A stretch of 58,903 nucleotides of DNA. Source: a virus. Shown here piece by piece: positions 21,600-53,192 of the stretch. The notes beneath the pieces are model-generated. The model had not been told where the DNA came from and did not search any database. It saw nothing but the letters and a program-made list of their open reading frames with translations. The first letter of the stretch is position 1. Each line of letters starts with the position of its first letter. The DNA lies in the IMG/VR virus record IMGVR_UViG_3300014913_000511, positions 1-58,903 of that record. One strand, given 5' to 3'. The position numbers and the translations under genes were made by a program.

Positions 21600-22592
21600 T
21601 TAGTGAGCGTCCCCGTAATCCTTTAGCAGATAATCGGGATTAATTGACTTGAAAATCACCCGTCCCACTTCTAAACTCTGACGTTCTACCTTCGGCCTGA
21701 TAACGATGCCTTCCCGGATATGTTTAGCACCAGGCATTAATGTTTTGCCCTCTGATAATAATTTCAAATTCTCTGGTTTATATTTTTCCGATATAATTAC
21801 AGGTGGAATTGGCAGTTTTTCTAATTGTGCATATATGAAAAAATCATCCCAATTAAGGTAAGTCCCCTTTCGCTGGATATCAAAGAAAACAGCAGCAGGG
21901 GTTAATGCTCCATACTCTAGTCCTTTTTGAACTTTCTTTCCGTAAATTTCTCCATAAATAGTATCACCAGGCTTGAGCTTTTCGGCAAGGTTATATTTGT
22001 AAAACGCTTGCCAATAAAGGTTGGAAGACGATTCTTTCAGGTTCCTTCGATGCGACCCTACGAGGAAAGTTCCGTCTATATTTGCGGCCCTGAAATTGGT
22101 ACCGTGGATTTTTTCTAGGCAAACAATCGGCTCATTGACGCGAAGAATATCGGGAAAGTTTTTAATATTTTCTATCCTCACATATGTTAAAAAGTCATGG
22201 TGGTCTGGGCAAGAGTCACTGTTTTTGTTAAATGATTGGGGCGGCTCAAATTTCTTTATCCCTAAAATATCCGCAACATCTGTACCTATTGGAGTGTCAT
22301 GAGATATTTCAACATCCCCTACGCCTATCAATAATCCCATTGATATAATTCCTCGCAATTTAGTGGCTCGGACTCGTCCCTTCGATAAATACTGGGTAAC
22401 ACCTAATTTATTTGATAACTCCTCGGGAAGTACAGCATCTACAGGGATGTAAATCGCCTTTTCATTAGCTGCATATTGCCCCTTTTTCACGCAACATGTC
22501 CATTCTCCGACGGTTGCTATTTCTAAGCGGTCGGTGTTTGGAGCATCAGAGATTGCGTCTATTTTCACGACTTTTACGATTAGAGAACTCAT
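21600..22592 (-). CDS. RNA ligase (DRB0094/Rnl5-like family)
   Basis: This 330-residue nucleotidyl transferase should seal RNA ends using ATP. An N-terminal OB-like region (about 1-110) is followed by the adenylation domain: motif I EKIHGTN at 160-166 with nucleophile Lys161, motif III-like IYGEIYG at 212-218, motif IV REGIVIRP at 293-300 and motif V FKSIN at 314-318. The order of domains and the N-terminal sequence fit the Deinococcus DRB0094-type ligases more than T4 Rnl1 or Rnl2. In phages such ligases can repair host or phage RNAs cut by host defence nucleases. No polynucleotide kinase partner is seen here. Confidence 0.88.
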   Translation of the reverse strand: MSSLIVKVVKIDAISDAPNTDRLEIATVGEWTCCVKKGQYAANEKAIYIPVDAVLPEELSNKLGVTQYLSKGRVRATKLRGIISMGLLIGVGDVEISHDTPIGTDVADILGIKKFEPPQSFNKNSDSCPDHHDFLTYVRIENIKNFPDILRVNEPIVCLEKIHGTNFRAANIDGTFLVGSHRRNLKESSSNLYWQAFYKYNLAEKLKPGDTIYGEIYGKKVQKGLEYGALTPAAVFFDIQRKGTYLNWDDFFIYAQLEKLPIPPVIISEKYKPENLKLLSEGKTLMPGAKHIREGIVIRPKVERQSLEVGRVIFKSINPDYLLKDYGDAH

Positions 22593-25812: not shown

Positions 25813-26718
25813 TCAAAACATAGATTGCTGTTTTTCCTTATTTCCGAGCATCTCCAGCGCTCGTGGGTTTTGCCAGACGATTTCCGTCCGAGATGTGTGT
25901 TTTAGAGCAGCGCCTTTGCCTTGAAGTTTTGACACACGCACACGCCCGGCGGCATGACAAGCGGTTTGAAATTCAGTCCTGACCCAGCCCGCATCGTCCA
26001 TGCGCGAATAAATCGGCGTGTCATAACCTGAAATGACAACTGCCCCGTTAAGGGTTAAGAGTAAGTCGACCAATTTTTCGTGGTGGGTATCGTCCTGTTC
26101 GTGTGCGTAAATATTACAGTGTCCTTTACTTCTCGTCCTGTGAAGATACGGCGGGTCGCAGTAGAAAACTGTTTTTTTACTATCCCAATATTTAAGTACA
26201 GTCAACGCGTCCCGCCCGTCAATTTGCACGTGCTCGATCCTCTCACGCCATCGTGGAAAAAGAGATTGTCGCATTTGCCACGAGTTGACAGTATCGGCGT
26301 GCCCTCTTTTTGAACTAAATGCCCGACTCCAATTCCCTTGCGTTTTTGCTTTCCCTGAAAACCCCTGATTTTGTGCTACGAAAAACGCCCAGGCTTTTTC
26401 AATCGGGCATTCCGTCGAACTTTTCAGAATTTCAATTGCCCTTCCAAACTCCGAGTAAGAATAAAGAGTAGCCTTAATTCTTCTTTCCAGTTCCACCGAT
26501 TGATTTATATCTTGCAACACTCGATATAAATTAATTAACCTATCATCAAGATCATTATAGATCTCAACAGGCGACGGCTCACGATCCAGCAACACGCTTC
26601 CCGCACCTCCGTATGGCTCAACGTATAGTTGATTATAGGGAATTAAGGGGCGCAATTTAGCAAGCATATTCCCCTTTCCGCCATACCATTGAACCGGAGC
26701 GTTTAAGCGATTACTCAT
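25813..26718 (-). CDS. dam: DNA adenine N6-methyltransferase (Dam/D12 class)
   Basis: This 301-residue enzyme transfers methyl groups from S-adenosylmethionine to adenine N6. The N-terminal WYGGKGNMLAKLRPLIP and YVEPYGGAGSVLL (32-44) form the cofactor site, and DPPY at 188-191 is the catalytic motif. The order is alpha class, as in Dam. Phage copies commonly protect DNA from restriction or set expression timing; the recognition sequence is not visible from the protein. It lies among late genes, so methylation may occur before packaging. Its start overlaps the upstream membrane-protein gene. Confidence 0.93.
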   Translation of the reverse strand: MSNRLNAPVQWYGGKGNMLAKLRPLIPYNQLYVEPYGGAGSVLLDREPSPVEIYNDLDDRLINLYRVLQDINQSVELERRIKATLYSYSEFGRAIEILKSSTECPIEKAWAFFVAQNQGFSGKAKTQGNWSRAFSSKRGHADTVNSWQMRQSLFPRWRERIEHVQIDGRDALTVLKYWDSKKTVFYCDPPYLHRTRSKGHCNIYAHEQDDTHHEKLVDLLLTLNGAVVISGYDTPIYSRMDDAGWVRTEFQTACHAAGRVRVSKLQGKGAALKHTSRTEIVWQNPRALEMLGNKEKQQSMF

Positions 26719-39719: not shown

Positions 39720-40091
39720 TTACCCAACGTCCGATATGTCAATACATTGGAACACGGTTTTGCGCTTGCCTATTTGTTGAAGTTTGCCCGTTAAATCCAG
39801 GGTCAACGCCATTTGTCCGTAAGGAGTGAACTCTAAACCCTTGCCCAAATCACCCCAAGCATACGTCGCGCTTGCTTTATCGGCCTGTTCAGCCCTAGCC
39901 ACCGGGTCACGAATAGCAACGTAATGAGCGGCAAGCCACCGCTCAACTTCTTTCAATTCTACGTCTGTCATTACATCGTCATCAGCATAAACTTTCGACA
40001 CAACGAGATTCGCCGCTGTGATAAATGCAGTCAAATCTGTCAAAGTTGTATCAATTATCTCTTTGACTTCGGTGGTGGTCGTGCGGGCCAT
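39720..40091 (-). CDS. Head-tail connector protein (DUF4054/gp6-like)
   Basis: This 123-residue helical protein begins with a helix bundle (DTTLTDLTAFITAANLVV) and has ELKEVERWLAAHYVAIRDPV, followed by a G-rich loop and a strand (GKGLEFTPYGQMALTLD). This is the arrangement of gp6-like connector subunits that sit under the portal. It lies at the junction between the glycan-related island and the tail genes. Confidence 0.78.
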   Translation of the reverse strand: MARTTTTEVKEIIDTTLTDLTAFITAANLVVSKVYADDDVMTDVELKEVERWLAAHYVAIRDPVARAEQADKASATYAWGDLGKGLEFTPYGQMALTLDLTGKLQQIGKRKTVFQCIDISDVG

Positions 40092-40786
40092 TACTTAATT
40101 TTCCGTTTCCACAATCCCGGATCAACGAATGATAACACGCCTGTCTCTTGCCAGTCAAGTCCGAAGTCACAAATGAGCGCTTTGATTTTACTCATATCGC
40201 CGTTAATTATCTCTTGAGGCCATATTTCGCGTATATTCAAACATGCGTCGTGCATTTCATCGAACAGCCGTTCATGTTTGGCCACCCACTTACACCAACC
40301 ATGAGCCGAAGAGTAGCCCCGCATAAATCCAGTTTTCAAGCATGAACGCACAATATCATCTGCATTTCGTCTGACGATTATCCACCGGGCCAGGGGGAAG
40401 GCTTTTGCCCAAATAGGCCACATAAGACAAAACTTTGCTGCCTTAGCAAACCATACTTGCGACGAATTGTACCCTTCAGACTTGATTATTTCCAACACTC
40501 GGTTACGTACAATTGGGCCTTCTTTTTCTGAAATCAAATTGATCGCTTCCGTCTTAGGAAGCGGTAGTTGCCCCAACGGATCGCAATTCCATTCGCGCAA
40601 GTAAGGCTTGATTATTTCGTTTATAATCGCTTTATTCTCGAACATCCCTTTTGGATTATAGCGAGTCTCTCCGCGCATGTCGCCGCCCCAAGCGCCACAT
40701 TTATGTACAATTCCAGACACTAGGGATGTTCCGGACCTCGCGGCCCCTGTGATAAAAATCGGCGATTCACGAAAGGAAAAAGTCAT
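40091..40786 (-). CDS. PAPS-dependent sulfotransferase
   Basis: This 231-residue protein has the two hallmark sites of sulfotransferases: the 5'-phosphosulfate loop FITGAARSGTSLV at 11-23 and the 3'-phosphate site RRNADDIVRSC at 139-149. It should move sulfate from PAPS to a hydroxyl or amine on a sugar or protein. The acceptor is unknown. It overlaps the connector gene by one base and the glycosyltransferase gene by four, so it is part of the virion operon. With the phage APS kinase it makes a two-step sulfation route. Confidence 0.88.
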   Translation of the reverse strand: MTFSFRESPIFITGAARSGTSLVSGIVHKCGAWGGDMRGETRYNPKGMFENKAIINEIIKPYLREWNCDPLGQLPLPKTEAINLISEKEGPIVRNRVLEIIKSEGYNSSQVWFAKAAKFCLMWPIWAKAFPLARWIIVRRNADDIVRSCLKTGFMRGYSSAHGWCKWVAKHERLFDEMHDACLNIREIWPQEIINGDMSKIKALICDFGLDWQETGVLSFVDPGLWKRKIK

Positions 40787-41535
40787 TTAACCCCCCAAAA
40801 TTGTGTAACGACAGGATGTTTAGACTGATGAGGTCGCGGCTTCCCATGAAAAGAAACTATCCGCGCATCTTCTGGTAAATCGCGATCACGCACGTGACGC
40901 TTGAAACTAAATATCTGTCCAGGAAACATGTCTTGCCACTTGTCCACATATTCCATGCCCGATGTAACCTCTCGAATCCAGTAACGCTCGCGACCTTTTG
41001 CTAACTCTTCGGCCCAGTCTAAATTGTCGACAAACCGCTTGAAAAATCGAGTTTCATTTTTCGGGCCAGCCTTAAAGCCCATAATATCCCCATCGATCAA
41101 GTGTTCACATCCAGGCTTGAACTTTGCGCGCCCGCAAAAGTCACCAGAATATGAAAGTAAATCGTCAAGCGATCCCGTAATTACAATGTCCACATCAAGA
41201 CAAAGAACTTGCCGACCAAAAAGGCCGCTTGCCTCGCTGAACATCGCCAAACGAGGCAAAACGCCATGAAACGAAGGGGGATTAAACCCCCGAATTTCTA
41301 TATTTTTATCCAGTTTTAATGTTTCGTTTGTAAAGCAGATAAAATCAAACGGCGTTTTAGTGAAGCGCTTGCAACCATGAAACAAGTTGTTGACATATTT
41401 CCCCGCTAAACCATTGCTCACTGTGCCCACGCTTTCGGCATGTTGTGCAAGATAATTTACCTTGCCGCCGTCGTTGTAATTCTTAGGCCGCCACCGGTCG
41501 CCTTGCCAATAAAAACAGATGATTGTAGGCTTCAT
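40783..41535 (-). CDS. Glycosyltransferase-like protein (GT-A type)
   Basis: This 250-residue protein has the start MKPTIICFYWQGDRW, a central LCLDVDIVITGSLDDL with a DxD-type metal site at 114-116 (DVD) and the C-terminal SFHGKPRPHQ. This is the general layout of GT-A enzymes that use nucleotide sugars, close to GT8-like proteins found in phages. It resembles its downstream-in-sequence neighbour at 41532-42269, suggesting duplication. Donor and acceptor unknown. Confidence 0.72.
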   Translation of the reverse strand: MKPTIICFYWQGDRWRPKNYNDGGKVNYLAQHAESVGTVSNGLAGKYVNNLFHGCKRFTKTPFDFICFTNETLKLDKNIEIRGFNPPSFHGVLPRLAMFSEASGLFGRQVLCLDVDIVITGSLDDLLSYSGDFCGRAKFKPGCEHLIDGDIMGFKAGPKNETRFFKRFVDNLDWAEELAKGRERYWIREVTSGMEYVDKWQDMFPGQIFSFKRHVRDRDLPEDARIVSFHGKPRPHQSKHPVVTQFWGVK

Positions 41536-42269
41536 AAATTCATCTCCTTATCTATCCAAGGCACGCCAGTCTCGCGGAAATCGTTCTTTTCAGAATGACC
41601 AGTAATCACGATTAAATCTTTCGGTTTCTTAGGTGTCTTTTTAGCTGCATCCAATTTCATCATCCATTTATCTCTGAACATGTCCAAGTTAGGGTACCAA
41701 TCCCCGTAAACGTCCTGCTCGCTCCGATATTTTGCAATGATTTTGTCGCTATTTGTAACGAACTGCTTGTAAATCTCTTGTGTAACGACAGACCGAGGAT
41801 TCCATTTCATGACGCTCGCTTGATACCGTCGAAACAGCCCCTTTTCTGTCTCCTCTTTCTCCCTATCTTGTGGGCGTCCGGGGCTTTTAGTGTCAAACAA
41901 CATGAGATTCGAGTAATATCCGCCACATTCAACTAAAGGCTGAATGCTATTTACAAGGGTAATGTCAAGATCGAAATACAGCGATCCAGTTACCTCTAAA
42001 TTAGGGTTAAAACACTCTATTTTAGCCCACCAACCAGGCCATTTATCAGGGTATTTCAAGGGAATAACCGTCCCTGGTAAAGATTTGCTCATACTATTTG
42101 TCAAGCAATGGAACTTAAATTTATACGGGCAATGATTTTCCACTAGCGCATGTAGACGATGCACGTCTGCTTCTGTGTAATTCCTTCCGCGAAAATCGCC
42201 AAGCCACAACAAGCAGTAAATATTCAGGTGTGGATAATCAGTCAAATTTATCCTTTCAAATGCCACCAA
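41532..42269 (-). CDS. Glycosyltransferase-like protein (GT-A type), paralogue
   Basis: This 245-residue protein has the same fold pattern as the 40783-41535 product: an N-terminal LNIYCLLWLGDF, a tryptophan-rich PDKWPGWWAKIE, then GSLYFDLDITLVNSIQPL with a DxD-type site at 100-102 (DLD). The C-terminus has VITGHSEKNDF, comparable to the histidine-containing end of its neighbour. Likely a second transferase for the same glycan. Confidence 0.72.
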   Translation of the reverse strand: MVAFERINLTDYPHLNIYCLLWLGDFRGRNYTEADVHRLHALVENHCPYKFKFHCLTNSMSKSLPGTVIPLKYPDKWPGWWAKIECFNPNLEVTGSLYFDLDITLVNSIQPLVECGGYYSNLMLFDTKSPGRPQDREKEETEKGLFRRYQASVMKWNPRSVVTQEIYKQFVTNSDKIIAKYRSEQDVYGDWYPNLDMFRDKWMMKLDAAKKTPKKPKDLIVITGHSEKNDFRETGVPWIDKEMNL

Positions 42270-42748
42270 ATATGGTCATAAAACTTGGAGTCTTTATAGT
42301 CTTTGCCGAAAAATTCCTTAACAGCTTTGTCAACCCCAGGATGATAATTGTTGAAGTCGTGACCGCTTACAATTCCGCCCTTTCTCACCTTTGGAAACCA
42401 AGCGGCAATGTCTGCTTTCACGTTTTCGTAATCATGATAGGCATCAATGAAGACAAAATCCAAGGATTCATCCTTTATCATCTTCGCAGCCTCGACGCTT
42501 GGTACTTCCAACACCTCGACGCGCAACAGATAAGGCTTAATTGCTTCAATCCATTGATCGCGACTAGCTAGGCTATCTGACTGTTCCCCACTGAAGTCGC
42601 CCGGGTAATAGGCAACTTCGAGCAAGCGCAAGTCAGGATTTTCGCGTAAAAGGAACTTGGCCGTCGCCCCTTTTCCTGTCCCGACTTCCGCGCCATATTG
42701 ATAATTGTATTGCTTGATAACAAACGATAGCCACGTATAACGCTTCAT
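42248..42748 (-). CDS. S-adenosylmethionine-dependent methyltransferase
   Basis: This 166-residue class I enzyme has motif I GAEVGTGKGATAKFL at 19-33 and the post-motif LDFVFIDAYHDYENVKADI typical of Methyltransf_24-type proteins, often sugar O-methyltransferases. It is short, consistent with a minimal Rossmann core. It overlaps the genes on both sides and belongs to the glycan island. Substrate unknown; methylation of a sugar is inferred from context. Confidence 0.85.
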   Translation of the reverse strand: MKRYTWLSFVIKQYNYQYGAEVGTGKGATAKFLLRENPDLRLLEVAYYPGDFSGEQSDSLASRDQWIEAIKPYLLRVEVLEVPSVEAAKMIKDESLDFVFIDAYHDYENVKADIAAWFPKVRKGGIVSGHDFNNYHPGVDKAVKEFFGKDYKDSKFYDHIWWHLKG

Positions 42749-43512
42749 TCCTCTCCCTCAAGAAAATCCTCAAGCGGCATGATTGGAAATTGTGTAATTG
42801 CAGATCCAGGAGTACAATTAATAATTTTCAATCCTAATTTTTCTGCATCAGCCTTAATCAAAGGGAAGGCTTTTAGGAAACGTGCGTAGGGGTCTTTCTG
42901 TGGAGCTGGATGATCGTCGTGCCAATTAGCTTTATCGTCAACGCGCCGCATATCCATACCTAGAAGCACGATTGTTGTTGCGCCTAAATGATAAGCCAGG
43001 TTAATAGCACTTCCTGCGCTACTTTTATTCCAAGAGACGTAACGAGGTCGCGTTTCAATTCCAATCGGTTTTCCACGATGAACGCAAAGCACTCTATCTA
43101 TGTTAATTAATTTCTTATCAGCAACCGTAGTGACAAGCAAACCCCTGAAATCCTTCAAGCTTTCCCTGTGCCACCAGAACCATTGCTCGTCGCCAAACCA
43201 GCAAACATCAACCCACAGTCGGGGAGTGTAAAACACTGTCCGCTTGCGTCCACCATGATCAATCGTTTTTTTGCCATGGGTGGGGTCACCGTAAGCATTA
43301 TTCACGGCTATGATTTTACGCTCTTTTATTAACGAAAAATCAACATTATTGAGCGAAGGGCCGCCACCAAGGATGAAAACCGTCTCGTCTTTCCATATTC
43401 GAGGTATCGTCCATCCCGTAGGGTCTTTAGGTTTACCTGTGCCCTTGCCTGAACGTCTTTTGGCAAGAGCCTTTACCTCTGGCGTCAACGGTTCAAACTT
43501 CAGAGGAATCAT
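42745..43512 (-). CDS. DUF115/Maf- or GT42-like protein, candidate keto-sugar transferase
   Basis: This 255-residue protein has VFILGGGPSLNNVDFSLI near residue 46 and a second signature SAGSAINLAYHLGATTIVLL at 165-184 ending in GMDM. It closes with KLGLKIINCTPGSAITQFP. This pattern is shared by Maf-type DUF115 proteins and GT42 sialyltransferases, both of which handle CMP-activated nonulosonic acids. Since the phage also encodes CMP-Kdo synthesis, transfer of Kdo is an attractive guess. The start at 43512 is an ATG inside the end of the upstream gene; a TTG lies five codons earlier. Confidence 0.6.
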   Translation of the reverse strand: MIPLKFEPLTPEVKALAKRRSGKGTGKPKDPTGWTIPRIWKDETVFILGGGPSLNNVDFSLIKERKIIAVNNAYGDPTHGKKTIDHGGRKRTVFYTPRLWVDVCWFGDEQWFWWHRESLKDFRGLLVTTVADKKLINIDRVLCVHRGKPIGIETRPRYVSWNKSSAGSAINLAYHLGATTIVLLGMDMRRVDDKANWHDDHPAPQKDPYARFLKAFPLIKADAEKLGLKIINCTPGSAITQFPIMPLEDFLEGEE

Positions 43513-43837
43513 CAGGAATTCCAGCAATAATTAAAGCTTCCTCTTTGCTCAACAGTACATCATTGACTTGAACTCCCGTTGCATCAAGCACGGCAAACAT
43601 GCCTCGGCCCTTATGCTTGATTGTGAATCGTGGCACATCTGGAAACGCCGGGGGCGTTTTAGGTACCGCCCCCGGCTCGTCGAATTCTTCAAGCGATTCC
43701 AGTTTATGGCGAATGTGCCGAACTTCATAAGGTGTGGCCGTGAAAGTATCCCCGGCCTTCACTTTTCCACGTGCATCACGAAAGACATGCTCCCCTGCAA
43801 TTTGCTTCATCCGCCACTTAACCGGCTTGTCGCTCAT
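43493..43837 (-). CDS. Head-associated protein downstream of the major capsid gene
   Basis: This 114-residue protein has a charged first half (FRDARGKVKAGDTFTATPYE) and a compact C-terminal domain RFTIKHKGRGMFAVLDATGV ending near the EEALIIAGIPD segment. It lies 16 bases after the major capsid gene. Such small proteins at this site are often head fibres, decoration or head-completion proteins, but no family was recognised. Confidence 0.55.
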   Translation of the reverse strand: MSDKPVKWRMKQIAGEHVFRDARGKVKAGDTFTATPYEVRHIRHKLESLEEFDEPGAVPKTPPAFPDVPRFTIKHKGRGMFAVLDATGVQVNDVLLSKEEALIIAGIPDDSSEV

Positions 43838-43853
43838 CGTTCAGGCTCCCTCG

Positions 43854-44864
43854 CTACGCGCTATACACAGCGATTCCGCAATCGCCCTCGTAAGTACTTC
43901 GAGGCTGCGGGACCATAATCGTCAAAACCTTGAGGTATTTCGACATGCCGTCCGGGCTGTCCCACTCGACGGTAGTAATCGGCTGGCCGACCACAATTCG
44001 CATAACGTCCGAAGTCAACTGGCAAAGAATAACTTTCCCGGCGGTCATCATGTCGACGGTACGAATGAACGAAATGCCCTCAAGCGCCATGATTCTGTCG
44101 CGGATAGTCCGGGGGTAATTACTCGCGTAATCTTGGTCCAAAACTTCCGTATAAGCCGTCGGGATAAACAAGCCGTAAGGCCCGTGCATCTTGTCGTTCA
44201 CGAGAGCTTGTTTCATAGCGACAATATCGGCGATAATTGTCGCGCCCGAAGCCGCCGAAGCCGTCCAATCTTCCGTCAAAGAGCCAGTATTCGCAGAGGG
44301 GTAGTCCTCCAAGCCGTAAATGATACCGCCCTTAAAGGCAAGGTTATCTCCGCCTGTGAAGACGATCTCCTCGACTTTCTGCATGACTTTCGCGGTGGCA
44401 AGTTCGGCACCCGAAGTATCCAGCGGCATCCCGTTTCGCCGAGAAGCGCCCAAATCTCGAATATCAAACTTCATGTTCGTATGAACAATCGGCAACGGGA
44501 GATAGGTAATGTCGTAATCGGGGCGGTCTCGCGTCGCCTGCACTCCGGCGTTCATCGAAATCTCAGCCGCCGCAATGTCGCTCTGCGTCTCGTAGGCAAG
44601 AGACATGACGGACATACCGTTAGGAATGTTGTACGTCAATCCCCTCGAAAGGAACTCCCGCGTTCCGTTAATCCGTTCTTGTGCGGCCTTGACTACAGTC
44701 CTATCAATCTCTTTCCAGTCGTCGTACCGCAAAAGGCCATTCGTACGAAGCGCCGCCGGATTAAAATTGTTAGCTAGGAGCCTTTCGGCCACGCTTCCAA
44801 TTCCTTTGATTCCGTTCGGCACTGAATAGATCGTGTCAACCCCTACGTTTCCTACAATCTCCAT
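43854..44864 (-). CDS. Major capsid protein (HK97 fold, encapsulin-like family)
   Basis: This 336-residue protein lies after protease/scaffold and decoration genes, where the shell protein is expected. The segments RYDDWKEIDRTVVKAAQERI, IVHTNMKFDIRDLGASRRNG and EEIVFTGGDNLAFKGGIIYG follow the pattern of encapsulin-like capsid proteins (E-loop, spine and A-domain). No N-terminal delta-domain is obvious, which agrees with a separate scaffold in the protease gene. It has its own GGAG-type ribosome site. Confidence 0.85.
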   Translation of the reverse strand: MEIVGNVGVDTIYSVPNGIKGIGSVAERLLANNFNPAALRTNGLLRYDDWKEIDRTVVKAAQERINGTREFLSRGLTYNIPNGMSVMSLAYETQSDIAAAEISMNAGVQATRDRPDYDITYLPLPIVHTNMKFDIRDLGASRRNGMPLDTSGAELATAKVMQKVEEIVFTGGDNLAFKGGIIYGLEDYPSANTGSLTEDWTASAASGATIIADIVAMKQALVNDKMHGPYGLFIPTAYTEVLDQDYASNYPRTIRDRIMALEGISFIRTVDMMTAGKVILCQLTSDVMRIVVGQPITTVEWDSPDGMSKYLKVLTIMVPQPRSTYEGDCGIAVYSA

Positions 44865-44877
44865 GATCTTAACTCCT

Positions 44878-45357
44878 TTACACGATCAGCACATGAATGC
44901 GAATCGCATCAATAGTGCTGGTGCTGGTGTTTTTAGCCTCAAGAGCTTGCGCCACGATAGCATGGGCCTTAACGTCCTCAACGCTTGTGGATTCAGCAAC
45001 ATGTTTCCGAAGAAAACCGTCGCCCGCGCTTTCAAGGTAATCACCCACCGCTACCGACTGGTCGTTTGTCAAAATGGCGTACACCTCGTCACCCGGTCCA
45101 CATAGCCAATAATTGACTTGCGATCCGCTGGCAATATCGTCGTCAATGTCGTCGCCACCAAGCGAATTTTCCTTCACGAACATCGCAGTAGCAGGGCCGC
45201 CTGCCGTCGCATGCTTCTTGACGCCTGTGGAAGTAATTTCCAAAAGCATTCCAGGAGTTAGAGCGGTATCAGCCTTCGCTTCACTGGGAAGCGGGTCAAC
45301 CTCTCGCCCGCTTTTCAGCAGAACGATGTTTCGGTTTTTCGTCGTACTCACAGCCAT
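44878..45357 (-). CDS. Capsid decoration-like protein
   Basis: This 159-residue acidic protein rich in small residues (TPGMLLEITSTGVKKHATAG, VAVGDYLESAGDGFLRKHVA) resembles DUF2190-type or decoration proteins that bind the outer shell. It lies directly upstream of the major capsid gene, the usual place. No enzymatic motif. Confidence 0.7.
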   Translation of the reverse strand: MAVSTTKNRNIVLLKSGREVDPLPSEAKADTALTPGMLLEITSTGVKKHATAGGPATAMFVKENSLGGDDIDDDIASGSQVNYWLCGPGDEVYAILTNDQSVAVGDYLESAGDGFLRKHVAESTSVEDVKAHAIVAQALEAKNTSTSTIDAIRIHVLIV

Positions 45358-45384
45358 GATAATATCCTTTCTCGTTACCTTTAG

Positions 45385-46839
45385 TTACTTGGTAATTTCC
45401 CACTGAATCAGAGGCACATCTGGAACACCCATGCCGTCCGGCGACCGCTCGTTGGCCTTGAATTCGCGCTTTCCAGCTGTGGAATGCCCTGCCTGTCCCT
45501 GATAATGGGGAGAAGCAAGACGGGCCAGTTTCTCAAGCTCGGGAATGTCTTTATCGGAAAGTTCCTCGTTCGTAAACGGATTGGCCTTATTCGCCATGAC
45601 TTTTCCGACGAGGTCGGCCTTCTTCGTGTCGCGCAAAACCAGGCCTTCTTTGAGCATTTTTGACACGTCCGGGGGCACTTCGCCAAGCCATTCATGAAGC
45701 GTTTTGATCTGCGGTTCTTCCGTGGGGGGTTCGACAGCAACGGGCACCACAGGAGCAATAGGAACCGTAGGTGCAACCGAGGGCGGCTCTTCTGTAATCA
45801 CCGTCGCGGCATTCGTCTGGATTTTCTCGGACAGCAAGTCGAAGCCCGCTTTCAATCGTGCAAAAGAATCGCAATCAATCGACTCAAGCCACCCCCTATC
45901 ATCCTCGGAGAACGGCGAAACTTCATTCGCCAGAAATACATCAACCTTCGCTTTTCGTTCAATAGAATCAACCATCTTCTCAGCCCCTTCTTCGCCGTCT
46001 TCTTGCGACGTTTGTTTATTTGCTTTCACTTGGATAAAATTCCTCTGCTCTACAACTTCGACTGGCTCGCCTGAAAGCGTAGGAATACCATTCTTTCCAA
46101 GTGTGTATTTCTGCTTGTAAAAAACATATCCACGATCAGGAGTAGACACTTCGTAGATAAAATACTTCCTCGTGGCATATGTCAAATAGAGATAAACCGA
46201 CCCGTTAAAAGGAGCAAGAGGTTGGATCAACGCCCTCAATCGGGTATTCAAGTCGTCATCGCTCAACAAATTAGTTTTCACGCTTGTATTTCTTACACCA
46301 CAACCATCCTTCCAGGAGCAAGCCCCCTTGACATCCCAAAGGAACGCCAAATGATCAGGCCGAAGGTTACGCGCAAGAGATCGATACTTCTTGCCCGCCC
46401 ATTCACCTTCGGCCTCCTGCTCTTCCATAAATAATCCAGTGCTTACCTCGAAGTGCTCAAAATTCTCTAAGGCCAAGACTGCACCGTCGCTAAACGCTTT
46501 CAGGGCCTCGACGCTTATTTTCGCTTTGGCCTTCAATTTGTTATCGGTGAAAGCAGCATCGAAAATCTCCCCGATAATGAATGACTTTGCGGCGTCAGAC
46601 GACACCGCCGAAACGTTATTACCTTCAGAGTCCAAGGGATGCTGAAAAGTAACTGGAACACCATTCCACGCATCGGCATTCTTCGCTATCTCTTTTTCAC
46701 TGTACATAATTGGTCCACCAGACCCGTTATGTACACCTTCAACAAGCATAACAACAGGCACAATCATAAATCCGTCGTTGACAGCTCTCTGATTGTCTGC
46801 GTTTCTGTTTATTTCCAGTTTGGAATTCAGGAAAATCAT
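45385..46839 (-). CDS. Prohead protease/scaffold fusion (DUF2213 type)
   Basis: This 484-residue protein has an N-terminal DUF2213-like domain (GVPVTFQHPLDSEGNNVSAV, RNLRPDHLAFLWDVKGACSW) associated with capsid maturation proteases, and a C-terminal half rich in proline, alanine and charged residues that looks like an internal scaffold. A stretch with PSVAPTVPIAPVVPVAVEPP links them. It precedes decoration and capsid genes, as in many phages. Catalytic residues could not be fixed by eye. Confidence 0.82.
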   Translation of the reverse strand: MIFLNSKLEINRNADNQRAVNDGFMIVPVVMLVEGVHNGSGGPIMYSEKEIAKNADAWNGVPVTFQHPLDSEGNNVSAVSSDAAKSFIIGEIFDAAFTDNKLKAKAKISVEALKAFSDGAVLALENFEHFEVSTGLFMEEQEAEGEWAGKKYRSLARNLRPDHLAFLWDVKGACSWKDGCGVRNTSVKTNLLSDDDLNTRLRALIQPLAPFNGSVYLYLTYATRKYFIYEVSTPDRGYVFYKQKYTLGKNGIPTLSGEPVEVVEQRNFIQVKANKQTSQEDGEEGAEKMVDSIERKAKVDVFLANEVSPFSEDDRGWLESIDCDSFARLKAGFDLLSEKIQTNAATVITEEPPSVAPTVPIAPVVPVAVEPPTEEPQIKTLHEWLGEVPPDVSKMLKEGLVLRDTKKADLVGKVMANKANPFTNEELSDKDIPELEKLARLASPHYQGQAGHSTAGKREFKANERSPDGMGVPDVPLIQWEITK

Positions 46840-47732
46840 TATGCTGCCCTTCTCCTCTTCTCTTTCGGAGCGTCAACCGGCAACGCCGCACATTTACAAT
46901 TAGGGTGACGAGGAATCATGCCTTCAATTTCCTTCAAAGGAAAAACTTTCCCCTCAAGCGATTGACAAATAGGGCAAACTCTGAACCCCCCCGTTAGCCA
47001 TTCCGCCTGCACCTTCACCCCGTCAACACCCCACTGCTCGAATTCTGCAATATTAGCCACGTGGTGCGCTCTGACTATTTCCGTGCGCGCCACTGTCCGC
47101 CACCGCGTAATCCCGATTTTACCCACTCGATTATTTAATGCTTTAGCTATTATTTCAGGATTATCACCACGCATTAATCCGTCTGCCAACACTCGTGAAA
47201 TTTGCTGATCCATGGCCCGCGTGACACCCTTTAGCTCACTGAAAGTCCGAGTAAAAAGGACACCTAGCCTATCGGCATGCATTGGTTGCGCAAGAAGCGC
47301 GGGTACTTCCGGGGGCGTTAACACCGGCACATCATAGCCCGCCTTGCGAAGCTCTTGCCGTCCTGTCAATACCCCACGATCGTAAGCCCGCCGAATATAT
47401 ACGTCTGTCCATGCATCCTCTATTCCACGTAACGAATCGAACCTATGGACAATCTCAAGCACCCCCTTTTCCTCTTGAGCGTTCAGCCACTCCATAAAGC
47501 CTGTGACTTTATCCGCCGAACGACGAAAGGAAAAAGCGTCTTTCGGGGCAGGCTCTAACGCAAAAGTGTAAAGAGGGTTTTTCCTCAAGCCGAAGCAATC
47601 GTTTTCAACAATCGACTTGCGAATAGCCCCTTTCAAGTCACGGCCTCGCTTGTTAATGTCACTGACGAATTGCCGCCGGAGAGTCAACGTCCTCGAAGGG
47701 TCAAAATCCCGGCTGGAATTCAGTGTTAGCAT
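46839..47732 (-). CDS. Minor head / head morphogenesis protein (Mu F-like, SPP1 gp7 family)
   Basis: This 297-residue protein has the conserved C-terminal pattern: RWRTVARTEIVRAHHVANIA, then FRVCPICQSLEGKVFPLKEI and IPRHPNCKCAALPVD, with cysteines that may bind zinc. It is found next to portal and protease genes. It is separated from the portal here by the fibre and Kdo genes, an unusual insertion. It overlaps kdsB by seven bases. Confidence 0.88.
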   Translation of the reverse strand: MLTLNSSRDFDPSRTLTLRRQFVSDINKRGRDLKGAIRKSIVENDCFGLRKNPLYTFALEPAPKDAFSFRRSADKVTGFMEWLNAQEEKGVLEIVHRFDSLRGIEDAWTDVYIRRAYDRGVLTGRQELRKAGYDVPVLTPPEVPALLAQPMHADRLGVLFTRTFSELKGVTRAMDQQISRVLADGLMRGDNPEIIAKALNNRVGKIGITRWRTVARTEIVRAHHVANIAEFEQWGVDGVKVQAEWLTGGFRVCPICQSLEGKVFPLKEIEGMIPRHPNCKCAALPVDAPKEKRRRAA

Positions 47733-48481
47733 ACACCGCCGTTTTTCTTCACGTCTGATTCACAATCAATCGTCGTTGGAGCTGTCGTCCGAAGAGCTTT
47801 TATGACTCCTGGGAACCTAAGTTGCTCCAACTTTTGCCCTTTTTCTGCTTCCGTCTGTTCTAGCTTAACATACCGATGAAGAAAGTCAACACGATAAGCA
47901 TAAATTCCCACATGCAAAAATGGCATTTCTACGTCGTCCATTATGCGAGAAAAAGCGGAAACTTTCTTCGTCTGCAAGTCAACTAAAACTTTCACTCTAT
48001 TAGGATCGCGTAACTCGTTCTTTCTAATCGGAGCGTAAGCCGTCCACACGACGTCGCGTCCTCGCTCTTTTTCCATGGCAACTTTCAGCTTATCTAACAC
48101 CGAAGCGTCGAAGATCAACATGTCGCCTTGCACGTTTATCACTACATCGTTATTTGCAAGACGAAGCTCTTGAGCAGCAAAAAAGCAACGCTCAGTACCG
48201 TTCGCGCACCCGGAAGTAGGAGTCATGATTAGGGGGTCATATGACAAATTCCGAGAATGCAAAAGTGAACGCCAGTCACTTTTGGGCATTCCACGATGCT
48301 CTTGTTTTTGCAACGCCGCAACAATTATGTCATCCGAAACCGCCATGAATGTTGGGATTTCAGACGAATAAGCCTTCTCAAAGCAGTAACGCGCAAGGGT
48401 TTTATTGTTAAAAGCAATCAAGGGCTTATGCCGAACGCGGGAACTCTTAAGATGATTCGTTACAATTACAGTTGTACTCAT
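47726..48481 (-). CDS. kdsB: CMP-Kdo synthetase (3-deoxy-manno-octulosonate cytidylyltransferase)
   Basis: This 251-residue enzyme joins Kdo to CMP from CTP, the activation step before lipid A glycosylation. It is close to the family's usual length (about 248). Diagnostic pieces are RHKPLIAFNNKTL, NGTERC at 94-99, INVQGD at 115-120, PFLHVGIYAYR at 187-197 and KLEQLRFPG at 217-225, with Asp239 in TIDCESD as the likely second metal ligand. The nucleotide-binding start is altered (VTNHLKSSRVRHKPL instead of IPAR...R...KPL), and the usual acid after QGD is Met. It is coupled to kdsA by an ATGA overlap. Confidence 0.9.
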   Translation of the reverse strand: MSTTVIVTNHLKSSRVRHKPLIAFNNKTLARYCFEKAYSSEIPTFMAVSDDIIVAALQKQEHRGMPKSDWRSLLHSRNLSYDPLIMTPTSGCANGTERCFFAAQELRLANNDVVINVQGDMLIFDASVLDKLKVAMEKERGRDVVWTAYAPIRKNELRDPNRVKVLVDLQTKKVSAFSRIMDDVEMPFLHVGIYAYRVDFLHRYVKLEQTEAEKGQKLEQLRFPGVIKALRTTAPTTIDCESDVKKNGGVC

Positions 48482-49242
48482 GAATTCACCGCCTTAAAAA
48501 CCTTCACGACTTCCCACAAGAAATCATGAAAAGTTGAAAGTTGAAGAGACGTTTTTCCGTCACATACAGCACTCGCCGGGTCCGGATGAACTTCAACATA
48601 TATACCGCTAGCACCAGCTGCAACACCCGCTTGTGCTAGCGGTAAAATATTGGCACGATCCCCTGCCGAATGGCTCGCGTCTACCAAAACAGGCACCCCA
48701 TATTTTCGCATTTCATGAATCTTGCGCATGTCAATTACAATATCATTATACCCAAACGTAGTACCGCGCTCAGTCAACCAGACGTTAGGGGGATCAGGGT
48801 TAAAAGGCGTCCAACCGCATTTGACCAGGGCACCAGGGATAATATCAACGCTTGCAAACTGCCCCTTTTTCCAGTTTGTCACAAAAGGAGAAGCCGCTGC
48901 CGCCTTACAAATGTCCGTTTGTCTGCACAATAAAGAGGGAATTTGCAACACGTCAAGACAGTCCAGCGCTATTTCTTCAAGCGCTTTAACCTCATTCACC
49001 GAATGCACATCTGTCAACGTCTTACAACCCACGCGACGCTTCAGACATCGAAAAGTATTTGAGCCTTTCGTCAAACCAGGGCCACGAGGCGAAGTTGAAC
49101 TTGACCTATTTGCCTTGTCATAAGACCCCTTGAAATAATAATCACATTCGAGGTCGTCACAAGCCGATTTACAAGCCCGCGCAATCTCAATGTTTATATT
49201 GTCGTCGTCTTCAAGGGCGCAAGGCCCCGCAACTACAAGCAC
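48478..49242 (-). CDS. kdsA: Kdo-8-phosphate synthase
   Basis: This 254-residue enzyme condenses phosphoenolpyruvate with arabinose-5-phosphate to Kdo-8-phosphate. The match covers the whole barrel: AGPCALE at 5-11, FKGSYDKANRS at 37-47, TDVHS, LLCRQTD at 104-110, TERGTTFGYND at 157-167, VDASHS at 187-192, VEVHPDP at 216-222 and CDG at 227-229. Cys8 in the GPC motif marks the metal-dependent class. The start is a GTG at 49242 with GGAGGAG upstream. It is about 30 residues shorter than E. coli KdsA because the N-terminal strand is missing. KdsC and KdsD are not encoded, so host enzymes must supply those steps. Confidence 0.94.
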   Translation of the reverse strand: MLVVAGPCALEDDDNINIEIARACKSACDDLECDYYFKGSYDKANRSSSTSPRGPGLTKGSNTFRCLKRRVGCKTLTDVHSVNEVKALEEIALDCLDVLQIPSLLCRQTDICKAAAASPFVTNWKKGQFASVDIIPGALVKCGWTPFNPDPPNVWLTERGTTFGYNDIVIDMRKIHEMRKYGVPVLVDASHSAGDRANILPLAQAGVAAGASGIYVEVHPDPASAVCDGKTSLQLSTFHDFLWEVVKVFKAVNS

Positions 49243-49586
49243 CGCTCTCCTCCTACGTTATGACGCACAATATCGTCAGGATCGTAATTCACAAACATTA
49301 CTTCAGTCAAGACCGCCGGTTCTTCTTTAGTGAAAAACATATGATTTTGACATGGTATTATGGTAAAAAATTGACCTTCTTTTAGTTCAATTTCTCGCCG
49401 CTGTCCTAGCTCCTCAACTTCAATAAAGACGACTCCAGACACACAATAAAACAAGTTGTACTTATTTTTATGAAAATGCCAAGAACATCTTTTCTGCGGT
49501 TCTAGGTTGAGAATGTCAACAGCACAAGTATCGTTACCGAAGATGTTATTTTTTACCCCCCAAATCTTACTTGATCGATTGACCAA
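49233..49586 (-). CDS. Cupin-fold sugar-pathway protein
   Basis: This 117-residue single cupin has WHFHKNKYNLFYCVSG (metal-binding HxH...E/Y pattern) and the second motif EGQFFTIIPCQNHMFF. Small cupins like this isomerise or epimerise sugars or act as sugar-sensing proteins beside nucleotide-sugar genes. It starts with a TTG and overlaps kdsA by ten bases, so it is probably part of the same pathway, perhaps supplying or modifying the pentose or keto sugar. The exact reaction is unknown. Confidence 0.7.
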   Translation of the reverse strand: MVNRSSKIWGVKNNIFGNDTCAVDILNLEPQKRCSWHFHKNKYNLFYCVSGVVFIEVEELGQRREIELKEGQFFTIIPCQNHMFFTKEEPAVLTEVMFVNYDPDDIVRHNVGGERCL

Positions 49587-49598
49587 AACAACCCCCCG

Positions 49599-51413
49599 TT
49601 AAGACACGCTTATAGTTGGATCGACCCAGACTTTTTTACCAGCCTCGTAACCTCGAAGTTCTAGTCTGAACTCAACCAATCCCACCCTAGATGGAGTGAC
49701 AGAAACTTCTAGGTACTGTGACCAATCGCCTTGCGTCGTCCTTGTCGATACCCCCCCCACACTATCCACATCTGTAGTCGCACCCGTAATAGCACTAGAA
49801 GGATAGCGGGCCGTCAAGACTAACTCTTCGGCTGGAAGTGTCACGAAGTCAGTCTGAATGTAAACTCGATAAGTCTTCGCCGTCGTTACGTCCTGATAGA
49901 TGAAAACTTCGTCAAAGCCGAAAATCTCTAGCACCGCGTCATCGTCACAATTCGATTGTGGCACAACCTCAATCACATTTGAACATCCGCCAGGCCGCTG
50001 GGATGGATTATCACCCGTACCATCAGCCGCTTCCTTGATTACATCACCAAAGGCGTCAAACGTGTATTGCGCCCCAGCAACTTGATTATGGTTTTCCGAT
50101 CGTATGTATCCAGGATAGCCATGCGTGTTACGCCCGCTGAATACAGGCGAAGTAGGCATAAGCGAGTTGTTTATCTTGCCTGTCGTAGGGAATTTGAAAT
50201 CGTAATTATTGGCTTTCAATATTCCGGTAGGAGTATACCCAATATTGCCTTCTACAGTGACACAAGCAACTCCCCCTATTGCTGAAAAGTTCAAATAAGC
50301 ACTTCCTGTAATTTCCATTTTAGCAGATATACTACCGGACAAATAACAACAACTAACCATATCCCGCAGCTTTAGATACGTGCAAGCGTCCGAAATATAA
50401 CAACACCCAATAGCGTCTTGAATTGTAGCGTCATATACCCGTGTGCCGAAAACTTCGTAACAAGCTAAGCAATCGGAAGTCGCTGCATTGATATGTTCGG
50501 CTTGTTCAAATGCTCTTGAGCAATTAGCGAAAATACCACACACTTTAGTGTTGTTAGACCTATTGAATTGTCTAAGCGCTCCGAAAAACACGCCTCCAAT
50601 ACGCCCGTCGTCCAGGCTGATTCTATCAACGCCTATAAATCTAGCCCGCAAACAGAAGTTAGCGTAGTCTGTGTTACTGTCAATTTCTGGTCGATTACTT
50701 CCGTAGCTACCCAGTACTTCCGGGTGTCCGAGCTTCCCAATAATCACGTTTCTCGTCAAATGGGCTATCAAGCCCCCTGACTTAAAGGCACTGGACACAG
50801 TATCCGCACATGTAATCGAGGTACCGGAAATAGCGGCAATGGAAGTCAGAATCCAGTCGTTCTTATACCCATTAAAACCCGTGCACACGTCGCCCGTGTG
50901 AATCATTATCTGGTCGCCTACGTTCCATGCTCTGGAGTCACTTGTGGTTATACTCGTCGTGCCGTCTCCGTCAGCGGCAAGACTTGTATAAGGCTCGTCG
51001 CCGTAATAATCAGGGTCGTCTTGAAGGTCAACCTTACCCCCAGAGGCACACTGGATACCTCTGGTTGCGTTAGCCGTAGTATTCCAGTAGATCTCAAGCT
51101 TGTGCGACTTATCAAAAGGAGTAGCGCCTGAGCCGCCGGCACCTAACCGTCCTGCGCTCTCAATGTCCAGATTACTATGCCCAAATGTCAACTTACGGTC
51201 TGCGCTGTCGTTGAATTTAAGCACCCCCCCCGATGTGAGAGTCATCGTTCCAAGCTCGTTCGTCTCTGAGACGTTGTAGTCCACCTCGTGCCCGATATTC
51301 GTCACGTCACCCGCCAGGCCAGGCCAGTCGGTGCCCTTGACACCAGGAGACGTATTGCCCCACGTCGCTCCGTCGTTCCAATCGCCGTCTTGCGCGCTTG
51401 TGAAAGTTGCCAT
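49599..51413 (-). CDS. G8-like fibre protein, tandem copy 2
   Basis: This 604-residue beta-rich protein begins MATFTSAQDGDWNDGATWGN and has a G8-type N-terminal domain (W...GDVTNIGHEVDYNVSE), then repeated strand segments typical of right-handed beta-helices. It ends in a domain nearly identical to that of its upstream neighbour (VIEVVPQSNCDDDAVLEIFG onward). N-terminal and C-terminal parts are shared with 51414-53192 while the central part differs. Located in the head region, it may be a head fibre or tailspike; it could carry or bind a glycan. Confidence 0.7.
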   Translation of the reverse strand: MATFTSAQDGDWNDGATWGNTSPGVKGTDWPGLAGDVTNIGHEVDYNVSETNELGTMTLTSGGVLKFNDSADRKLTFGHSNLDIESAGRLGAGGSGATPFDKSHKLEIYWNTTANATRGIQCASGGKVDLQDDPDYYGDEPYTSLAADGDGTTSITTSDSRAWNVGDQIMIHTGDVCTGFNGYKNDWILTSIAAISGTSITCADTVSSAFKSGGLIAHLTRNVIIGKLGHPEVLGSYGSNRPEIDSNTDYANFCLRARFIGVDRISLDDGRIGGVFFGALRQFNRSNNTKVCGIFANCSRAFEQAEHINAATSDCLACYEVFGTRVYDATIQDAIGCCYISDACTYLKLRDMVSCCYLSGSISAKMEITGSAYLNFSAIGGVACVTVEGNIGYTPTGILKANNYDFKFPTTGKINNSLMPTSPVFSGRNTHGYPGYIRSENHNQVAGAQYTFDAFGDVIKEAADGTGDNPSQRPGGCSNVIEVVPQSNCDDDAVLEIFGFDEVFIYQDVTTAKTYRVYIQTDFVTLPAEELVLTARYPSSAITGATTDVDSVGGVSTRTTQGDWSQYLEVSVTPSRVGLVEFRLELRGYEAGKKVWVDPTISVS

Positions 51414-53192
51414 TTACGTAATCTCCAGAACAGGATCGACCCAGACTTTTTTACCAGCCTCGTAACCTCGAAGCTCTAATCTAAACTCAACCAACCCCAC
51501 CCTAGATGGAGTGACAGAAACTTCTAAATATTGCGACCAATCGGCTTGATTTACTCTAGTAGCTATCGAACCGATACTATCCACATCTGCAGTAGCCCCC
51601 GTAGTAGCACTAGAAGGATAGCGTGCCGTCAAGACCAATTCGGCAGAAGGCAAGGTCACGAAGTCAGTCTGAATGTAAACTCGATAAGTCTTCGCCGTCG
51701 TTACGTCCTGATAGATGAAAACTTCGTCAAAGCCGAAAATCTCTAGCACTGCGTCATCGTCACAATTCGATTGCGGCACAACCTCAATCACGTTTGAACA
51801 TCCGCCGGGCCGTTGCGTAGGGTTGTCACCCGTACCGTCCGAAGCAACTTTTATCACGTCGCCAAAGGCTCTATACTCACGTTGGGCCTCCGCAACTTGA
51901 TTGAAATCCTCGCAACGTAAAACGCCATGAATGCCCGATATATTCCTGTAAATAGAAGGCGTGCCGAACCTGCTACTAAACAAGGTCACATTGAATTCCC
52001 ACGCAGCGTCGTATGTGTTTGCCTTAGCAATCGCGCCATCGTAACCCAGACCCCCAAGGAGTTTCCCACCAAAGACGTAAAGCCAGACGACAGTATTGTA
52101 AAAAGCGTCCCCTGTAATTGTCAAGTTACTAATGCTCGTCGTGCCCATCATATTGCACGATTCAAGGTTGCGAATCGTTATATTTGATGCGCCTTCTGTG
52201 CTCAAATCAGCGCACCCCACAACGTCTCGAACCTCCACGGAATGGCAACCTCTAGCCACTTCAGCACAAGCGAGAACATCGCAAATGGAGCCGTCGATTA
52301 CCGAGCCGTCGGACATGGCGTATTCACAATTAGCGATAATGCCAATTATCTCTGCGCCCGCAGGAGTGGTTAGTTTCAAAGGGTCGTTTGCACCAAAAAC
52401 AACACCCCCAAAAGTACCAAACTGAATATCACAAACCTCAACGCCTATCAGGCGGCCTTGCAAGTCAAAAGTAGTCGTGTCGGTGTTTTCTATCCTAGGC
52501 CTATTACTTCCATAGCTACCCAGTACTTCCGGGTGTCCAAGTTTTCCAATAATCACGTTTCTCGTTAAATGAGCTATCAGACCGCCCGACTTAAAATCGG
52601 TGGACACAGCGTCTACACACGTAATCGATGTACCGGAAATAGCAGCAATAGAAGTGAGAATCCAGTCATCCTCATGGCACGAATCGCCCGAACATGTATT
52701 GCCGATGTGAATGAGAAGTTGGTCGCCTACATTCCAGTCACTCGATCTATCGTCACTTGTGATTATACCCGTTGTGCCATCGCCATCTGCGGCAAGACTT
52801 GTATAAGGCTCGTCGCCGTAATAATCAGGGTCGTCTTGAAGGTCAACAATGCCGTTATCCTCGCACACCAAACCCTTGGCATTGTCCGCAGTCGTGTTCC
52901 AATATATTTCTAGCGTGTAGGCCGCATCGAATTTGCCATCACCGAACTGCCCCCCAGCTTCAACCGTCACTTCCGAATGACCAAAGATTATTTTACGATT
53001 CGCACTATCGTCAAAAGAAAGCGTACCGCCAGAGGTAATTGTCAAATCACCTAGTTGAGCCGTACTGGAAATATTGTAAGCAACAGCATGACCAACATTA
53101 GCAACATCACCCGCAAGACTAGGCCAACCGCCGCCACCCCACGTCGCCGCAGCGTTCCAATTGCCGTCTTGCGTGCTCGTGTAAGTCGCCAC
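51414..53192 (-). CDS. G8-like fibre protein, tandem copy 1
   Basis: This 592-residue protein begins MATYTSTQDGNWNAAATWGG and has the same three-part plan as 49599-51413: shared N-terminal domain (VDLQDDPDYYGDEPYTSLAA is identical), divergent middle with cysteine-containing beta-helix turns, and shared C-terminal domain ending GYEAGKKVWVDP. The two genes abut without a gap. Length and repeats fit a trimeric fibre or spike. An enzymatic site on glycans is possible but not visible. Confidence 0.7.
   Translation of the reverse strand: MATYTSTQDGNWNAAATWGGGGWPSLAGDVANVGHAVAYNISSTAQLGDLTITSGGTLSFDDSANRKIIFGHSEVTVEAGGQFGDGKFDAAYTLEIYWNTTADNAKGLVCEDNGIVDLQDDPDYYGDEPYTSLAADGDGTTGIITSDDRSSDWNVGDQLLIHIGNTCSGDSCHEDDWILTSIAAISGTSITCVDAVSTDFKSGGLIAHLTRNVIIGKLGHPEVLGSYGSNRPRIENTDTTTFDLQGRLIGVEVCDIQFGTFGGVVFGANDPLKLTTPAGAEIIGIIANCEYAMSDGSVIDGSICDVLACAEVARGCHSVEVRDVVGCADLSTEGASNITIRNLESCNMMGTTSISNLTITGDAFYNTVVWLYVFGGKLLGGLGYDGAIAKANTYDAAWEFNVTLFSSRFGTPSIYRNISGIHGVLRCEDFNQVAEAQREYRAFGDVIKVASDGTGDNPTQRPGGCSNVIEVVPQSNCDDDAVLEIFGFDEVFIYQDVTTAKTYRVYIQTDFVTLPSAELVLTARYPSSATTGATADVDSIGSIATRVNQADWSQYLEVSVTPSRVGLVEFRLELRGYEAGKKVWVDPVLEIT

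Follow-up and report, generated by a model that had tools for sequence, protein, structure and literature searches.

The locus described here raises the question of why a phage should carry genes for an activated keto sugar among those for its head, and onto what such a sugar would be transferred. It lies in IMG/VR virus contig IMGVR_UViG_3300014913_000511 from an uncultured phage, the whole 58903-base stretch of which is referred to below as the window. A preliminary description had proposed that kdsA, kdsB and a cupin gene form a cassette making CMP-Kdo (cytidine monophosphate 3-deoxy-D-manno-octulosonate), for use by a DUF115/GT42-like protein encoded further along the same strand. The observation itself is confirmed and the interpretation as a whole is partly supported, the most useful new fact being that a broad phage lineage carries the transferase as a near-core gene of its head operon. 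The explanation that we favour, at a probability of roughly 0.45, is a cytosolic phage glycosylation system, in which the transferase would use a CMP-Kdo-type donor, its supply boosted by phage KdsA and KdsB, to modify a virion protein.

To avoid circularity, contigs of the lineage were sought by the major capsid protein (MCP) alone, in a search blind to the transferase, and the best 80 of 487 contigs were used. The transferase is present in 73 of the 74 loci with enough downstream sequence to be assessed (49 of 50 MCP clusters at 80%), and in 72 loci it lies on the same strand, no more than 1 kb downstream of the MCP gene (median 435 bases). Its placement among capsid genes, previously offered as a hint of a virion glycan, is thus seen to be near-core for a phage lineage. 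The only exception, L279, keeps a sulfotransferase-like gene, which precedes the connector gene in 22 of 29 MCP clusters at 80%. Opened by the transferase gene, the island between MCP and connector ranges from 0.4 to 8.7 kb, and its cargo includes methyltransferases, GT2 and GT11 glycosyltransferases, epimerases, hexapeptide transferases, radical SAM proteins and cupins.

Queried with the transferase sequence alone, viral contigs gave no match; an alignment-based search found at least 546 relatives, mostly encoded directly after the MCP. Relatives also occur in metagenome-assembled genomes of Zixibacteria, Spirochaetota, Bacteroidota, Alphaproteobacteria and others, and a Zixibacteria chromosome assembly (L190, CP070742.1) contains a MuF-protease-decoration-MCP-transferase-connector run that is probably a provirus of the MCP-defined lineage. 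The succession of MCP and a PHROG 4603 gene recurs in phage D3 (orf7) and Tetraselmis virus S20. Similarity to D3 orf7 (L023, 5861-6409), including the GPSL motif, continues upstream of the annotated start, and consequently this gene is probably annotated too short.

In the window, the ORFs (open reading frames) of the cupin, KdsA, KdsB and the transferase are all present on the minus strand (Table 1), where the order runs from terS, terL, portal, a small gene and two long related proteins to cupin, kdsA, kdsB and MuF, then through protease-like, decoration and MCP genes, a small protein, the DUF115/GT42-like gene and a methyltransferase, to two glycosyltransferases, the sulfotransferase-like gene, head-completion genes and Neck1. 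Pfam and PHROG matches identify the flanks of the Kdo cassette as head genes (terL, portal, MuF, decoration, MCP, Neck1). Cupin and kdsA overlap by 10 nucleotides (nt), kdsA and kdsB by 4 nt, and kdsB and MuF by 7 nt; overlaps of neighbouring genes, both inside the cassette and inside the island, range from 1 to 22 nt, so that each unit looks translationally coupled. The coupled cassette of the preliminary description therefore holds, and sits inside a terL-portal-MuF-protease-decoration-MCP operon. Since this layout recurs in scores of contigs, the arrangement is not due to chance.

What kind of enzyme stands beside the MCP? The gene starts with ATG, and an in-frame TTG would extend the ORF to 43527. 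Its product matches PHROG 4603 (phage 'alpha-2,3-sialyltransferase') at 8.9e-34, as do 51 of 51 relatives. There is no match at E<=1 to the GT42 Pfam model PF06002 (CST-I), kinship with that family being visible in profile comparison only, and a Kdo III transferase model, TIGR04437, matches weakly (E=0.0076). Searches with PF06002 over 289 and 369 genomes yielded no GT42 usable for a profile, and so CstII (its sequence checked against PDB 1RO7) and Escherichia coli WaaZ were used singly. When an alignment of 51 relatives was compared with these by hhalign, CstII scored 40.1 and WaaZ 36.9, while none of 109 unrelated or shuffled decoys exceeded 18.5. The CstII alignment covers only the N-terminal two thirds (127 columns), whereas that with WaaZ is near full-length (186 columns). 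GGGPS, N71, D108, D187 and H198 are conserved in at least 46 of the 51 relatives. An AlphaFold (AF2) model of good predicted quality (pLDDT 87.6, pTM 0.86) matches viral MptE-like/DUF115 proteins in BFVD at 1e-8 to 1e-4, and its lower-ranking matches there include a herpesvirus sialyltransferase and a phage GT29 protein; the sialyltransferases 5bo8 and 6apj are among its better PDB probabilities, at TM-scores of only ~0.35.

On the sequence comparisons, the protein is a solid if remote member of the superfamily comprising DUF115/MptE, GT42, WaaZ and sialyltransferases. The superfamily part of the earlier DUF115/GT42-like call is consequently upheld by PHROG 4603, hhalign, the MptE-like match and BFVD, while a significant fold match in the PDB did not emerge. 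MptE is a pterin diphosphokinase, and Maf proteins, which act on flagellin, are larger. The only Pfam match of the transferase is to MptE-like (PF01973; 1.6e-6, 28.5 bits, below the gathering cut-off of 34.6), and all 51 relatives match the same model, weakly, at E<=0.01. Together with several top BFVD matches named MptE-like, this could mean that the protein is a kinase of the MptE-like type, or that it has borrowed the fold for a non-catalytic role in assembly, but we consider either very improbable given the conserved His/Asp/Asn set, the similarity to CstII and WaaZ, and near-constant neighbours that are glycosyltransferases, methyltransferases and sugar epimerases.

The identities of KdsA and KdsB are solid from their sequences, and the loss of catalytic residues that could have undermined the earlier family calls was not found in either protein. 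KdsA reaches 243.1 bits on NCBIfam NF003543 (curated cut-off 242) and only 103 bits on the best DAHP (3-deoxy-D-arabino-heptulosonate 7-phosphate) synthase model, placing the KDO8P (Kdo-8-phosphate) synthase model 140 bits ahead, although on the stricter TIGR01362 it stays below the cut-off (230 vs 314). Aligned to Aquifex KdsA (1FWN), it retains the KANRSS motif and the Cys/His/Glu/Asp positions, with a loop after the catalytic His that is ~11 residues shorter, and it is probably metal-dependent. A tree separates it from DAHP synthases, at 100/100, and puts it on the KDO8P synthase side, where it groups with a clade of marine-phage cupin-kdsA-kdsB cassettes (97/97), but on a long branch.

For KdsB, the only NCBIfam models that match are KdsB models (best 1.2e-32), and all 13 PDB matches are KdsB. 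In an alignment with 10 related phage KdsBs, S13, R15, K19, R98, Q118 and D120 are invariant and D243 nearly so, and the motifs SxR...K, G[TS][DE]R, N[VL]QGD, LEQ[LM]R and the C-terminal Asp are invariant or nearly so. Nucleotide and metal residues are retained, and another residue takes the place of the Glu found after QGD in cellular KdsBs. The window copy lies on a long branch of the KdsB tree, and no placement was obtained. In addition to Cupin_2, the cupin has weaker Pfam matches to FdtA and D-lyxose isomerase; it follows kdsA rather than kdsB alone (35/50 vs 5/30 viral loci within 5 kb, a contrast inflated by related contigs). Neither KdsC nor KdsD turned up among the proteins scanned.

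Turning to the donor, a PF02348 protein (KdsB) occurs in 8 of 50 whole lineage records; those lineage KdsBs that were read are encoded either immediately behind terL or between it and portal, and 11 of 11 KdsBs scanned match KdsB models. NTP_transferase (PF00483) was found in none of the same 50 records, and NeuB in none of an overlapping set of 50, both searches giving matches in control genomes. Since the lineage carries KdsB, with neither NeuB nor NTP_transferase found, CMP-Kdo, or a close CMP-keto-sugar, is the donor that we favour. CMP-Kdo is a known donor for the Kdo of lipopolysaccharide (LPS), capsule and plant cell walls. A nonulosonate origin of the donor through NeuB was rejected on its absence from those records. 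Each of the bacterial genomes holding related gene runs encodes members of DAHP_synth_1, and several of these proteins are of KDO8P type, indicating that such hosts can make Kdo. One further lineage record has a KdsA-like protein; that of L109 (the record of L095, a lineage member), with an altered KMNRTR motif, is encoded in a non-structural region. In L106, L107 and L288-L293, KdsB follows terL, yet the neighbouring terL proteins look to be of different types.

Alternatively, KdsA and KdsB may be an auxiliary metabolic cassette serving host Kdo-lipid synthesis or other transferases, with the MCP-adjacent enzyme using another donor. Other viral contigs commonly carry cupin-kdsA-kdsB cassettes, and many marine phages have them without the transferase; the window KdsA belongs, on its long branch, to their clade, and some 4 kb separate cassette from transferase. 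We nevertheless regard this explanation as unlikely, as KdsB is the only nucleotide-sugar-activating family tested that was found in the lineage, and there lies inside the head operon, and as the transferase superfamily is rich in users of CMP-keto-sugars.

Several observations weigh against a Kdo-based virion glycosylation system. Most lineage members are without KdsB, and its carriers reduce to about five by MCP clusters, for which reason the contrast with PF00483 and NeuB is suggestive rather than overwhelming. The window KdsB scores 113 bits against a curated cut-off of 193, its transferase has A166 where 50 of 51 relatives have Gly, and a PDB Foldseek search with the transferase model returned no significant fold match. 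In Caulobacter phage CcrColossus, the transferase homologue is located next to tail rather than capsid genes. Finally, only 2 of 50 KdsB-bearing viral records outside the lineage contain the transferase, which suggests that KdsAB serves other enzymes elsewhere. The cassette is therefore not obligately tied to the transferase. A tight link across all phages was accordingly rejected.

As to the acceptor, a virion protein is favoured because the gene adjoins that of the MCP and the island is devoid of polytopic membrane glycan enzymes; position, soluble cargo and a presumed late expression all point to virion proteins. Indeed, by simple hydropathy, no membrane segment is predicted for 271 of the 279 island ORFs, and two or more for not a single one, unlike Gtr-type seroconversion cassettes, which combine a membrane flippase with a polytopic glycosyltransferase. 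A small ORF between MCP and transferase is found in 60 of 66 related loci. Its product has a recurrent C-terminal motif, 'tGKpiNdkpLtkeeA', and an AF2 model (pLDDT 82, pTM 0.42) without a functional match.

The main rival is that the transferase, fed by KdsA and KdsB, modifies the host LPS core in the cytosol in the manner of WaaZ, an LPS-core protein modelled as a Kdo III transferase by TIGR04437, changing the receptor and blocking superinfection or the re-adsorption of progeny to debris. The long WaaZ alignment and the weak TIGR04437 match are compatible with this, and published surveys place viral kdsA and kdsB under LPS biosynthesis (PMC10653327). However, the transferase is locked beside the MCP in 73 of 74 lineage loci and adjoins it in other heads, the island ORFs include neither a flippase nor a polymerase nor any membrane protein of Gtr type, and late structural expression would be poorly timed for remodelling a receptor, making modification of the LPS rather unlikely in our view.

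Under virion glycosylation, the order of steps that we infer begins with KdsA, which would condense phosphoenolpyruvate and arabinose-5-phosphate into Kdo-8-phosphate; a host phosphatase (KdsC) would yield Kdo, the supply of KdsC and KdsD by the host being assumed, and KdsB would convert Kdo into short-lived CMP-Kdo. The GT42/WaaZ-like enzyme would then transfer Kdo, or the sugar of a related CMP-keto-sugar, in the cytosol, and the two glycosyltransferases, methyltransferase and sulfotransferase of the island may lengthen the glycan or cap it. The most likely acceptor would be the MCP, the decoration protein or the small protein encoded next to the MCP. The majority of lineage phages would take CMP-Kdo from the host, with a minority bringing their own KdsB, and the window phage also KdsA, possibly because the supply of CMP-Kdo limits late in infection.

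Table 1 Head-operon and glycan-island features of the window, in minus-strand order
Feature	Position	Strand	Evidence
Cupin (sugar-isomerase-like small cupin), first gene of Kdo cassette	49233-49586	-	Pfam Cupin_2 3.9e-8, over cut-off
kdsA, 3-deoxy-8-phosphooctulonate synthase, Cys-type	48478-49242	-	NF003543, 1FWN alignment, tree; GTG start
kdsB, CMP-Kdo synthetase, divergent	47726-48481	-	CTP_transf_3 4.4e-18; KdsB models and PDB chains
MuF-like head morphogenesis protein, next gene after kdsB	46839-47732	-	Phage_Mu_F 5.5e-14, PHROG 758
Head decoration protein, candidate glycan acceptor	44878-45357	-	PHROG 766 head decoration 8.4e-9
MCP, candidate acceptor; homologues define lineage	43854-44864	-	PHROG 771 and 264
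Small two-part protein between MCP and transferase; candidate acceptor or assembly factor	43493-43837	-	Recurrent ORF in relatives
DUF115/GT42/WaaZ-like glycosyltransferase, near-core lineage gene	42745-43512	-	PHROG 4603, hhalign, AF2, BFVD
SAM-dependent methyltransferase of glycan island	42248-42748	-	Methyltransf_24 4.6e-15
Glycosyltransferase of glycan island	41532-42269	-	PHROG 1962 2.5e-16
Glycosyltransferase of glycan island	40783-41535	-	PHROG 1962 1.3e-16
Sulfotransferase-like protein, second island anchor, next to head-completion gene	40091-40786	-	Sulfotransfer_3 5.3e-8
Head-completion/connector-like protein closing island	39720-40091	-	PHROG 37884 1.2e-6 (function unknown), conserved position

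Elsewhere in the window, two tandem related proteins of ~600 amino acids (51414-53192 and 49599-51413) fill positions 49599-53192 between portal and Kdo cassette; they are 56% identical over their C-terminal two thirds, have no family match, and are possibly head fibres or spikes. The other half of the genome encodes a ThyX thymidylate synthase (5147-6208), an RNA ligase (21600-22592) and a D12-class adenine DNA methyltransferase (25813-26718).

The closest functional parallel may be the mycobacteriophages (Che8 and relatives), in which phage enzymes glycosylate the capsid (Freeman et al. 2023, via PMC11256854; also PMC12619734). If virion glycosylation is correct here, the two share phage glycosyltransferases that decorate capsid proteins, although the passages on Che8 in these sources mention no Kdo genes or GT42/WaaZ-like enzyme, and the window lineage differs from the system described in them in having an enzyme locked beside the MCP, a sulfotransferase-like gene and variable cargo. 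Among enzymes, CstII shares GxGPSL and SG...G.D-type motifs with the window transferase, and CMP-sugar chemistry would be expected, but the relationship is remote; for WaaZ, CMP-Kdo would be the expected donor, yet it acts on the LPS core whereas the window transferase sits in a virion operon. To DUF115/MptE-like proteins the resemblance consists in the uniform weak Pfam match and viral structural matches. Marine-phage cassettes (e.g. L007-L020), and kdsA/kdsB of Synechococcus phage S-SCSM2R, comprise the same genes as that of the window, but no head genes of the window lineage were found around the marine-phage cassettes, nearly all of which are without the transferase; viral kdsA and kdsB are also listed in published marine surveys (PMC10653327).

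In the literature searched, which mostly did not extend to subscription journals, no description of a phage CMP-Kdo route to virions was found. Capsid protein glycosylation has, to our knowledge, been shown for only a few phages. More tentatively than for the window phage itself, we suggest that the broad lineage may build Kdo-containing, possibly sulfated and methylated glycans on its own capsids by means of a dedicated head-operon island, an idea made testable by the transferase homologue in the culturable phage D3. If this is true, the donor role of CMP-Kdo would extend to virion protein glycosylation, and capsid glycosylation would become a general, testable trait, its gene being fixed beside that of the MCP in nearly all lineage members. 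Viral kdsA and kdsB, now filed as auxiliary genes of LPS synthesis, would consequently gain a structural role in some phages.

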